A stretch of 38,183 nt of DNA, from assembly GCA_937860115.1 (NCBI GenBank), contig CALMBI010000024.1, positions 1-38,183 of the forward strand. The letters are read 5' to 3'. The translations under genes were made by a program, and so were the position numbers. The DNA comes from an uncultured Arcobacter sp. GTDB lineage: Bacteria; Campylobacterota; Campylobacteria; Campylobacterales; Arcobacteraceae. The notes below the pieces were generated by a model. That model was not told where the DNA came from, did no database searches, and worked only from the letters and a program-made list of their open reading frames with translations. Shown piece after piece: positions 3,934 through 36,657 of this stretch (position 1 is the stretch's first letter; each line of letters begins with the position of its first letter).

Positions 3934-3959
3934 AGACTAGCATTTTTGCTAGTCTCTTT
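3934..3959. terminator. Bidirectional intrinsic-terminator-like hairpin
   Basis: AGACTAGCA-TTTT-TGCTAGTCT perfect 9-bp stem followed by a T-rich run, between convergent genes. Confidence 0.75.
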
Positions 3960-5400
3960 TATTCTTTGATTTTTAGAGGTATTTTAATAGTAAATTGTGC
4001 TCCCAAATACTTTTGCTCACTGTATTCCATCTCTTTGTTTTCCACACTAATCGTACAATCCATATATTTTTCAATCATCTCTTTGGACATATAGAGCCCA
4101 ATCCCCGTGCCATTAGTATCTGATTTTGTTGTAAATTTTGAATCAAATATTTTATCAATAATATTTTCAGGTATCCCACCTGCATTATCTTGAATGACAA
4201 TCACTCCACTGTTACCATCTTTGAGAATCTTTGTTTTCAAAATTTTAAACTCTTGTTTTTCTGCTTTTCTTTCAAATTCATCGATCGCATTTACAAAAAT
4301 ATTCATAAATATTTGAATCAATTCCCTCGGATATCCAAGAATTTCTAAATCCTCATCATATTCTTCTAACATCTTAATAGAATTTTTTTTGATTTTTTGA
4401 ACTAAAAGCTCAATAGTATGTGCATATATTGTACTTAAAAAGAAACTCTCTTTTCTCTATCCTCTTTAAAAAAATTTCTAAAATCATTTATGGTTTCAGA
4501 TAGATGCATAACGTGTTGAGTAATTTTATTAAAATGATCAATATTATCTATCGGAAGCCCTATCTCATTGTGTACGACTCCAGAACTTGAAAGTGTTGAT
4601 ATGGCACTAAGTGGTTATTTCCATTGATGAATTATGTTTTCAAGCATCTCTCCCATCATAGCCATTTTTGATTGTTGATAAATGAGTTGCTCTTTGATTT
4701 GAAGTTCCCTTTTTGCTTGAAGCTCTTTTGTGATATCCCTACCACTTCCTACAGTTCCAAGTAGTCTTCCACTATCATCAAAAAAAGGTGCTTTATGCAC
4801 CTCCAAAATTAGATACTCACCTTTTACATTTCCATACTCTTCAAAAACCATATTTTTCATATTTTGTAAAACAACTTCATCAGAATTAAAACAAAGTTCT
4901 CCAAACGTATGCCACTCTTTATTCTCTTTATGTTTCTCTCTTTCTCTCAAAGCAAAATAAATATCACCTTTACCAATAGGTTCCTCTGTATCTTTTGCCA
5001 TCAAAAGATTTTCACAGATTGCTTTGTTTGCAAAGATATATTTTCCATTTACATCTTTTGCCCACAACATATCAGGAAGATTATCAGCAAGCAACCGAAG
5101 TAATTTATTTGGATCGAGTACACCATCAAGTGAGCTATCCTCTAGATCATTTTTCTGACCATGAAAAATAATCACTCCATCATCCATTTTATCCACATCA
5201 AATATATACTGCTCACCTTGACAATAAAAAAATGTTCTCCCCATATCTTTATTGTATAGAGCATTCACGCCATCTTTAATAAGTGTATTAAGATCTGTAT
5301 TGAAAGAAAAATCATCACTAAATAGTTTCTTGAAATTATGATTATAATGTTTAATTTGATTAGATTTTACATCATATAAAAATATAATTGTTCTCTTCAT
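3959..5400 (-). pseudogene. PAS-domain sensor histidine kinase, disrupted
   Basis: Two ORF fragments (4615..5400 PAS plus H-box start IIHQWK; 3959..4372 ATPase domain NAIDEFERKAEK, DNAGGIP, GTGIGLYMSKEMIEKYM). Sequence between still encodes HisKA-like PLSAISTLSSSGVVHNEIGLPIDNIDHFNKITQHVMHLSETINDFRNFF, interrupted by TAA at 4615..4617 and a frame change near 4436..4450. Confidence 0.85.
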
Positions 5401-32587: not shown

Positions 32588-33466
32588 ATGATTACACTAG
32601 ATAAATCTACAAAAGAGCTTTTTAGCTCTTTTTGTATCAATAACAATCTGACAGAAAATATGGAACAAGCGATTGAATACTTTACGATATTTGGTGGGCT
32701 TGATGAAAAACTTGACTTTACAATCCCTATCAAAGAACTCATTAAAAAAGTTGTTTTGGTAAACTATGATACGTTTAGAAAAGAGATCAATCAAATCATA
32801 GGTGGTTATGGTGTCGAGTATGCAATTCTTAGTGGTATTGCACTTGGAGATCGTAAAACAACTACTACTTTTAAAAGAGCACATCTTAGTTTTGAGGAAG
32901 GGATGAAATGTGTTGATAATCTTTTAGATACTGAGATTATTGAGATCGAATCATCACAATACTTTCTTCTTGGAAAAAGAAATGATACAAAGACTGCAAA
33001 AAAACTTTTCTTTACCGTGCCATTTATTCGGTTTTGGTTTGGATTTATTTCTCCTATATATAAAGGAATCAAAGAGGGAAATTTTGAAGAATTTGATAAA
33101 AGATACGATAACTATATGGGTGAATTTGCTCAATTTATTTTTGAAGAGTTGTGTTTAATATTTTTACAAAATTATAATTTTGATGATGAGATCAAACAGA
33201 TAGGAAAATTTTGGGACAATAATCTTCAAATCGATATCGTTGCAAAGACTAAAGGCGATAAATTGATCGTTGCTAACTGCAAATACACAAATAATAAACT
33301 CAAAAAAAGTGAACTCAATAGATTAGTTGATGATTGTAGTAATTTACAGATTGATCCTGATATTTTGATCTTATTTTCAAAAAGTGGATTTTCGAGTGAA
33401 CTTAAGAGTTTAAAAAGTGAAAAGTTTAAGCTTTTTAGTGTGAAGCATTTGAAGCAATTAATTTAA
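32588..33466 (+). CDS. DUF234-like domain protein, no N-terminal ATPase domain
   Basis: FWFGFISPIYKGIKEGNFEEF...MGEFAQFIFEELC...IDIVAKTKGDKLIVANCKY resembles the C-terminal DUF234 region of archaeal-type ATPases. Confidence 0.6.
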   Translation: MITLDKSTKELFSSFCINNNLTENMEQAIEYFTIFGGLDEKLDFTIPIKELIKKVVLVNYDTFRKEINQIIGGYGVEYAILSGIALGDRKTTTTFKRAHLSFEEGMKCVDNLLDTEIIEIESSQYFLLGKRNDTKTAKKLFFTVPFIRFWFGFISPIYKGIKEGNFEEFDKRYDNYMGEFAQFIFEELCLIFLQNYNFDDEIKQIGKFWDNNLQIDIVAKTKGDKLIVANCKYTNNKLKKSELNRLVDDCSNLQIDPDILILFSKSGFSSELKSLKSEKFKLFSVKHLKQLI

Positions 33467-33548
33467 AAAATATTTAAATACTTTACATTTCTTAAATTTA
33501 AATTATTTTTTAACTCTTAATGAGATATTACTAAAGGGTCCAAATAAT

Positions 33549-34612
33549 TTGAAAAACTTTTTAAAATACTATTATTTCTATCTTTTATATACAATACTAT
33601 CCAAGCACAAACTATCAAAGATGTCTCAAATATAGTAGGAATTAGGGAAAATCAACTTATCGGGTATGGTCTTGTAGTTGGTCTTCCTGGAACTGGTGAT
33701 AAGAGTAAATTTACAATGCAATCACTCCAAAATCTCCTGAGAAACTCTTACGTAAAGATCCCAACATCTTCAATTAATTCTAAAAATATTGCTACAGTTA
33801 TGGTAACGGCAACATTGCCAGCTTTTGCTAGACAAGGGGATAAAATCAAAGTCAACGTATCTTCAATTGGGGATGCAAAATCGATCAATGGTGGAGAGCT
33901 ACTCCTTACACAATTAAAAGCAGTTGATGGAAAAGTATATGCTTTAGCTCAAGGTAATATTGTTTCAAATGCAAATAGTGCAACCACTGGTTACATCTAT
34001 GAAGGTGCATCTGTTGAAAATGAAATCAATTTTTCACTCAAAGATGAAGAATCTATAACTTTAAGTCTCTTACAAAATGATGCCAAAACAGCAGCAACTA
34101 TAGAAAAAAAGATCAATCAAACTTTCAATCAAAAGATTGCGTATGCAACTGATACAAGAACAATATTAGTAAATAAACCAAAAGATTCATCAATCGTAGG
34201 ATTTATCGCAAAAGTTGAAGGGATTGAGCTTGAGTCTGATATTCAAAAGAAAATTATCATAGATATAGCACGAGAAATAATAGTCGCAGGATCAGATATA
34301 CCAATCAAACCAATCACTGTGACTCAAAAAGATTTTACAATTAAAATCAAACAATCAAAACTAAACGAAACTGATTTCAAAGATGCTACTAAAAATGTAG
34401 GAGTTGATATAGGTGATGATGTTTCTGTTGGAAATAAACCAGTTGAGATCAATCTAAATAATGCTCTTGTGAATTCTTTGGCAGAACCAACTGTTTCAGA
34501 TCTTATGAGAGCAATGAAGATTATGAAAATCGATATTAATCAAATCATTAAGACATTAGAGATGCTAAAAGATCTTAATGCAATCGATGCAAAATTGGAG
34601 ATAATAAGATAA
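33549..34612 (+). pseudogene. flgI: Flagellar P-ring protein FlgI, apparently frameshifted at its 5' end (intact frame from 33551)
   Basis: Continuous FlgI frame KLFKILLFLSFIYNTIQAQTIKDVSNIVGIRENQLIGYGLVVGLPGTGDKS...; no start codon between the in-frame TAA at 33545 and 33716. Confidence 0.8.
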
Positions 34613-34613
34613 T

Positions 34614-35717
34614 ATGGCAGAGTTTTTAAGTCAAGATGAGATTGATGCACTTCTAGGGATCGCAGAAGATGGTAATGCCGACCTTGATGAAGTAGCGCAC
34701 TCAAAGCCTGCTACAAAAGAAAAAAGTTATACAATTTATGACTTTAAAAAACCAAATACAATTACAGTTGATCAACAAAAAGCATTTGAAGCACTCCATG
34801 AAAAACTTGTCCGTGCAGTTGTAACAAATCTTTCTTCTATGATGAGAAAAATAGTTGAAGTAAAAGTCTCTTCGATTGAACAAATGACTTATGGGGAATT
34901 TATTCTTTCGATTCCTCCAATTACTAGTTTAAATACCCTTTCAATGAAACCACTTGAAGGAAGAATTGTTATCGAGTGTAATCCAGGGATTAGTCATAAG
35001 ATCATTGCTGAATTACTTGGAAATGGGAAAAGCTATTCTCCAACAAATCAAGACAAAGAACTAACAGATCTTGAAGTTGAGATTTTAGGACATTTTTACA
35101 ATCTATTAATAACTGATTTAAAATTAACATGGGATGAGATCGCAACTATCAACTTTAAAATAGAATCACGTGATACAAATGCAAATGCTATTCAAGTTAT
35201 ATCAAACCATGAAGTTGTATTACTTGTGGTTATAGAGATCACCATTGATGATGAGATAGGAAATGTATCTATTTGTTATCCGATTGCTTATATTGAACCA
35301 CTTTTAAATAAAATCGTTACAAAACTTCTTGGAAGTGGCGGAAATAAAAAAGCAAGTAAGAGAAAAGATCTCAACACTCTCATCTCAGGTGCAAGGATGG
35401 AAGTTGAAGCTGTTTTAGCTGAAACTCACTTGAATGTACTAGAACTATTAAATCTCAAAAAAGATGATGTTGTAGTATTTAATAAAAATGCAACAAGTTC
35501 ATCAGCAAAAGTATATATCAATAAAAAAGAGAAATTTGAAGCGATAGCAGGTCTTTCAAATAATCGAAAAGCTGTACAAATTTTAACAAATGTTGACCAT
35601 GAAAAAATGGAAACACTTGAAAAACTAAAAGTACTTAGAGAAGATAGAGAGCAAAGACAAAGAGAGCAAAACGAAAGAATTGCTCGTCTTATTGAAACAA
35701 AAAACGATATATACTAA
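34614..35717 (+). CDS. fliM: Flagellar motor switch protein FliM
   Basis: LSQDEIDALLG N-terminal CheY-binding motif; IVECNPGISHKIIAELLG; C-terminal SpoA-like domain. Confidence 0.95.
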   Translation: MAEFLSQDEIDALLGIAEDGNADLDEVAHSKPATKEKSYTIYDFKKPNTITVDQQKAFEALHEKLVRAVVTNLSSMMRKIVEVKVSSIEQMTYGEFILSIPPITSLNTLSMKPLEGRIVIECNPGISHKIIAELLGNGKSYSPTNQDKELTDLEVEILGHFYNLLITDLKLTWDEIATINFKIESRDTNANAIQVISNHEVVLLVVIEITIDDEIGNVSICYPIAYIEPLLNKIVTKLLGSGGNKKASKRKDLNTLISGARMEVEAVLAETHLNVLELLNLKKDDVVVFNKNATSSSAKVYINKKEKFEAIAGLSNNRKAVQILTNVDHEKMETLEKLKVLREDREQRQREQNERIARLIETKNDIY

Positions 35718-35745
35718 ATCAAAATTTATAAAATTTTTTGACTTT

Positions 35746-36657
35746 TTAATCTAATAGTTCTTTTGCTATATCAAACCGATTTGCTGTCATAAGATGAATT
35801 TTTGGATGAAATTTTTTTACCTCTTTCAGTAAACTAAAACTTAAATCCATCCCTACTTTATATTCTTCCTCTTCACCTATTTTGGAAGCGTTTGTAAGGG
35901 CATCTATCCATGTATCAGGTACATAGATCCCAGGTACATGAGAAGCTAAAAACTGAGCAGTTCTTAGTTTTGTGATAGGAAAAATCCCTAAAATAAGCTG
36001 TGAATTAGCTCTTTCATCTCTAAATTCACTTTTTGCACTATTAAATGATTCAAGAAGTGCTTTACCATTTTCGAGATCATAGATCGGCTGAGTGATAATC
36101 CCTACAGCACGATTTGCAATTTTTTTATTCATCTTTTTTTCTAAAGTTTTAAAATTTTTTGCGTATGAATTTACAACCGCAAAAGGATAAAGTGGTTTTG
36201 GAGCTATTTTAAACGGTTTTCCAGTGAAATCCATTCCATTATTAAACGAATTAATTATCTCTAGTAGAAGATTTGAATTACCCTCAAATACCCCTTTTGT
36301 ATGAGGCTGATCACTCATATGGATTGGATCACCAGTGAGAGCCAAAATAGCTCGTATGTCAAAATCGTTTCCACCAAGTAGATCACTTTGGAGTGCTATT
36401 TTATTTCTATCTCTCATTGACATTGTAGCTATTACTGGTTTTTGAAATGTTTGTTGGAGCTTTAAAGCTGCAAAAAAAGCATTGTATTTCAGTTTTGAGA
36501 GTGGATTATCAGTTGTTGAAAAACCATCAACTTTACTTGCAAGATCGTACTCTTTAATTTTTTCAATCACTCCATCAAAAGTTGGTTCATGTGATGGTGT
36601 AGTCTCTAAAGTAAGATACTCTTCATTTTGTAATTTTTCGATAAGTTTTTGAAACAT
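35746..36657 (-). CDS. Methylenetetrahydrofolate reductase family protein
   Basis: ETTPSHEP, ALTGDPIH, GIITQPIYD, LILGIFPI. Confidence 0.8.
   Translation of the reverse strand: MFQKLIEKLQNEEYLTLETTPSHEPTFDGVIEKIKEYDLASKVDGFSTTDNPLSKLKYNAFFAALKLQQTFQKPVIATMSMRDRNKIALQSDLLGGNDFDIRAILALTGDPIHMSDQPHTKGVFEGNSNLLLEIINSFNNGMDFTGKPFKIAPKPLYPFAVVNSYAKNFKTLEKKMNKKIANRAVGIITQPIYDLENGKALLESFNSAKSEFRDERANSQLILGIFPITKLRTAQFLASHVPGIYVPDTWIDALTNASKIGEEEEYKVGMDLSFSLLKEVKKFHPKIHLMTANRFDIAKELLD

Follow-up and report, generated by a model that had tools for sequence, protein, structure and literature searches.

The closest described counterpart of the gene studied here is flgI of other Arcobacteraceae, which encodes the P-ring protein (PF02119/PRK05303). 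Experimental evolution of Campylobacter jejuni has yielded slip-strand mutations and genome reduction with loss of flagellar genes (PMC7677240), and the correction of frameshifted genes by ribosomal frameshifting or transcriptional slippage has been reviewed (PMC5009743). A literature search on flagellar loss in Arcobacter returned no account of it under the terms used. We analysed a stretch of 38,183 nucleotides (the window), which is one whole contig (G000:C24) of an uncultured Arcobacter assembly (G000; 1.73 Mb, 255 contigs, 97% complete). The flgI of the window shares with its Arcobacteraceae counterparts the full mature domain, the flgI-fliM gene order and a recognisable TTG and Shine-Dalgarno site, but differs in that its start is out of frame and that an upstream promoter-like element and the neighbouring flagellar genes are lost. 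In both the evolved C. jejuni (PMC7677240) and the window lineage, flagellar genes have suffered deletions and homopolymer indels, with an apparently irreversible loss of motility; in C. jejuni, however, deletion of rpoN drives the loss, in the laboratory, whereas the window lineage is uncultured, has structural and export genes deleted, and still contains rpoN sequence. A slip-prone sequence at the lesion and a compatible frame recall corrective slippage (PMC5009743), but the window site has neither the conservation, the stimulator nor the functional context of such cases.

The flgI remnant (33548-34612; window positions are on the forward strand unless stated) is an open FlgI frame that has no usable start codon and a mature domain otherwise of full length. 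It begins directly after a TAA at 33545-33547 and stays open to 34612, and its 5′ part translates as FEKLFKILLFLSFIYNTIQA-QTIKDVSN..., in which a signal peptide is readable. The frame passed the curated cut-off for PF02119 by a wide margin (E 1.5e-93; 313.9 bits against 25.3) and fell just below that for PRK05303 (297.7 against 300). A scan of the frame from the TAA found no ATG, GTG or TTG upstream of the ATG at 33716, and the signal peptide is therefore not translatable from any standard in-frame start. An orphaned TTG lies at 33549-33551, 10 nt after a Shine-Dalgarno-like AAAGGG (33533-33538; relatives have a similar AAGG), and the pair look like a normal initiation site. This TTG is offset from the FlgI frame by one base, and translation from it would give only a 28-codon reading before a stop. 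An earlier note on this DNA had described the missing start, the readable signal peptide and the out-of-frame TTG, and its description agrees with the letters and coordinates.

Comparison with 29 Arcobacteraceae relatives, whose named counterparts are largely metagenome assemblies, placed the lesion in the window lineage. In all 29, the flgI frame extends without a stop to a start at the corresponding site, nearly always a TTG, and the start is followed by a signal peptide and then QTIKD. Since every relative has an in-frame start here, the one-base lesion in the window is derived, and it disables a gene whose orthologues are intact; the frameshift that the earlier note had proposed is thus upheld by the sister starts. 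By the same homology, the TTG at 33549 is taken to be the genuine ancestral flgI start. The earlier note had located the lesion in the A-run at 33552-33556, which is off by a few bases. The two nearest relatives (L003 of G007 and L004 of G001) have the same AAAAAC directly behind the TTG, so that the A-run is not the lesion site, and the length difference falls instead in the T-run at 33558-33562, one base shorter than in L003. Of the 29 relatives, 27 have an GATAAAAT element 23-50 nt upstream of flgI; the window flgI lacks it. A plasmid search with the flgI locus gave no match. One public record from this genus, CAMCYD010000086.1 (L033), is titled 'Helicobacter pylori PMSS1' and carries a flgI 87% identical to that of the window; the title looks wrong.

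The surroundings of flgI are altered too. Most of the window is collinear with contig C34 of congener G007. There, MCP is followed by a 134-aa gene, metF, two flagellins, a Maf-like glycosyltransferase, many sugar-biosynthesis genes, fliM and flgI; beyond flgI lie divergent genes including FliQ, FliL, FlgH, FlgK, FliD and FliS, and then DUF234, pbp1A, ABC, gpmI, mraY and further genes to rpoBC. In G007, fliM-flgI is separated from metF by 18.8 kb and from DUF234-pbp1A by 7.8 kb, and both blocks are missing in the window. At the first junction (35718-35745, unstranded), 28 bp between metF and fliM stand where G007 has about 18.8 kb, assigned by family to two flagellins and to maf-like and sialic/pseudaminic-type sugar genes, including NeuB. 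At the second (33467-33532, unstranded), synteny and families place about 7.8 kb in G007 with fliQ, fliL, flgH, flgK, fliD and fliS, and the DUF234 gene of the window now lies about 80 bp from flgI. This left neighbour (32588-33466; PF03008) is 73% identical to the G007 gene at C34:31575-32384, and the right neighbour, metF (35746-36657, reverse strand; PF02219), is 88% identical to its G007 counterpart; in G007 they lie beyond the flagellar block from flgI and beyond the flagellin and glycosylation block from fliM, respectively. The flgH cluster adjoins flgI in G002, G003 and G005 too, and hence its absence from the window is derived. Loss of the GATAAAAT element is explained by the 7.8-kb deletion, which ends very near flgI. 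Between the junctions, the second gene of the stranded island, fliM (34614-35717), is full length and scores above the TIGR01397 cut-off.

We then examined the rest of the flagellar gene set in G000. No match to FlhA, FlgH or FliF was found in its contigs (97% complete, 255 contigs), whereas all three are present in five of seven congeners. The MS-ring protein FliF and the export gate protein FlhA are essential for a flagellum. One rod/hook-type match, flgG, was found against the usual seven of flagellated congeners, and one FliM/N match against three, with fliN/fliY not found in G000. The flgG gene (L108, G000:C69, 12633-13151) has an in-frame deletion of 91 codons, and fliG (L107, G000:C15, 1-569) lacks its first 161 codons and begins at residue 162. 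The first ~45 bases of that contig are unrelated to fliG and are possibly the end of a mobile element or a deletion junction. The functional partners of flgI are thus lost or broken, and the gene set that G000 retains allows no known route to a flagellum. Against a reading as flagellar loss, the missing genes could partly lie in gaps of the assembly.

Other flagellar sequences persist in G000, which likewise speaks against flagellar loss. The fliH gene is still present, and fliP is split over the end of one contig (L105, G000:C21) and the start of another (L106, G000:C190), which overlap by exactly 55 bp; this break falls at an A/T run that possibly varies in length in the population. A divergent flagellin also persists (L087, G000:C169, 8013-8816), about 40% identical to the G007 flagellins, though flhA was not found. 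The rpoN sequence is still there and is cut by a contig end (G000:C234); loss of rpoN was considered from this short frame and rejected, the contig end being its only cause. Upstream of flgG, the end of G000:C69 holds a transposase N-terminus (PF13808). It had raised, together with the truncated match, the suspicion of an insertion sequence in flgG, which the in-frame deletion ruled out.

The two remaining genes were examined for signs of relaxed selection. All 91 FlgI columns that are invariant in relatives are kept in the window, and dN/dS for fliM is ~0.08. Terminal branches are somewhat longer in G000 than in G007 for both flgI (0.12 against 0.045) and fliM (0.088 against 0.02); non-flagellar genes of G000 also evolve faster, and any relaxation of selection would be weak and lineage-wide. 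Both FliM and the mature FlgI domain remain well conserved, and the decay of flgI must therefore be recent, from which we infer that flagella were lost recently relative to the split from G007. On this evidence it is highly likely that flgI is a recently inactivated remnant, in a lineage that lost its flagellum by stepwise deletion and then, or in the same course, one base of the T-run. The flgI of the window is very probably dead, and synteny and gene content argue that flgI-fliM is a remnant left stranded when the flagellum was recently lost, with the frameshift one lesion among several. The warning in the earlier note that this allele should impair flagellum assembly is consequently moot, as the start is indeed broken but flhA, fliF, flgH and fliN/fliY are missing, flgG and fliG damaged and the flanking genes deleted.

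An error of sequencing or assembly, with the base present in the cell and the flgI start intact, is unlikely but is the alternative that fares best. Only one base differs, within a short homopolymer, and a second T-run lesion lies on the same contig, in a gene for a PAS-type histidine kinase (3959-5400, reverse strand), at 4437-4441. However, that gene has, besides the one-base frameshift, a nonsense codon at 4615-4617 and is a real pseudogene, its orthologues in G007 and G001 having open frames over ~480 codons; the two lesions fit a general decay of dispensable genes. None of the 351 A/T runs of at least five bases that fall in the intact genes of the window (31 kb) has an apparent frameshift, and the 55-bp contig overlap points to short-read assembly. 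Short reads rarely err at 5-mers. Even with the base present, flgI would be stranded in a genome that has no flhA, fliF or flgH.

Correction of the lesion during expression, by a ribosomal -1 shift at U_UUA_AAA (33560-33566) or by RNA polymerase slippage to give full-length FlgI, is very unlikely. The T_TTA_AAA heptamer fits the X_XXY_YYZ pattern and lies in the frame of the TTG, so placed that a -1 shift would lead into the FlgI frame and include the signal peptide; in AT-rich endosymbionts, slippage is documented to rescue indels (PMC5009743). Yet the heptamer is a mechanical by-product of the T-run lesion in TTTTTTAAAA and probably incidental, since the intact genes of the window, 10330 codons in all, contain the same heptamer 14 times in frame. 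The RNA 3′ of the slip site folds no better than shuffled sequences (z 0.93) and offers no stimulatory structure, and shifting is not conserved, as in the relatives the start codon is already in the FlgI frame and no shift is required. Slippage could not restore a flagellum whose partner genes are missing, and the correction by slippage entertained in the earlier note did not hold up on these grounds.

The phase-variable switch also raised there, by which slipped-strand changes of the run would turn flgI on and off, is still less credible. In Campylobacterota, flagellar genes are known to undergo reversible A/T-tract indels, for example fliR of C. jejuni (PMC7677240). The run in the window, however, is of five T only, is not a conserved tract in relatives and provides no long or conserved hypermutable repeat, and the deletion of other flagellar genes is irreversible. 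It is just as improbable that flgI and fliM are selected for a non-motility role in an aflagellate cell, with FlgI made at a low level by -1 slippage at U_UUA_AAA. There is equally little to commend a functional FlgI begun at a non-canonical ATA or ATT codon or at the ATG at 33716, for that ATG is the first standard start in the frame but drops, as the earlier note had recognised, the signal peptide and conserved N-terminus (the first ~38 mature residues), which all relatives keep.

The inactivated remnant that we favour would have arisen as follows. The lineage would have lost its flagellum by stepwise deletion: ~19 kb are gone from one flank of flgI-fliM and ~8 kb from the other, along with the promoter-like element upstream of flgI, and further flagellar loci have been truncated or deleted. 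Once flagella were no longer selected for, one base could then have been lost from the short T-run of the signal-peptide codons, throwing the ancestral TTG out of frame. The cell would accordingly be aflagellate, its loss recent and the base truly missing in it. In this account the deletions may have preceded the frameshift.

Two other congeners, G004 and G006, have none of flgI, flhA, fliF, flgH and flagellin. Flagella therefore seem to have disappeared on more than one occasion within the genus. The flgI case opens no new question: it is ordinary reductive evolution and gene decay, not a reversible switch, and it shows that the operon context must be checked before a start-codon frameshift in a single gene is taken for a switch. 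What the window adds is one more independent, apparently recent flagellar loss in the Arcobacteraceae, caught while its last genes are still readable.
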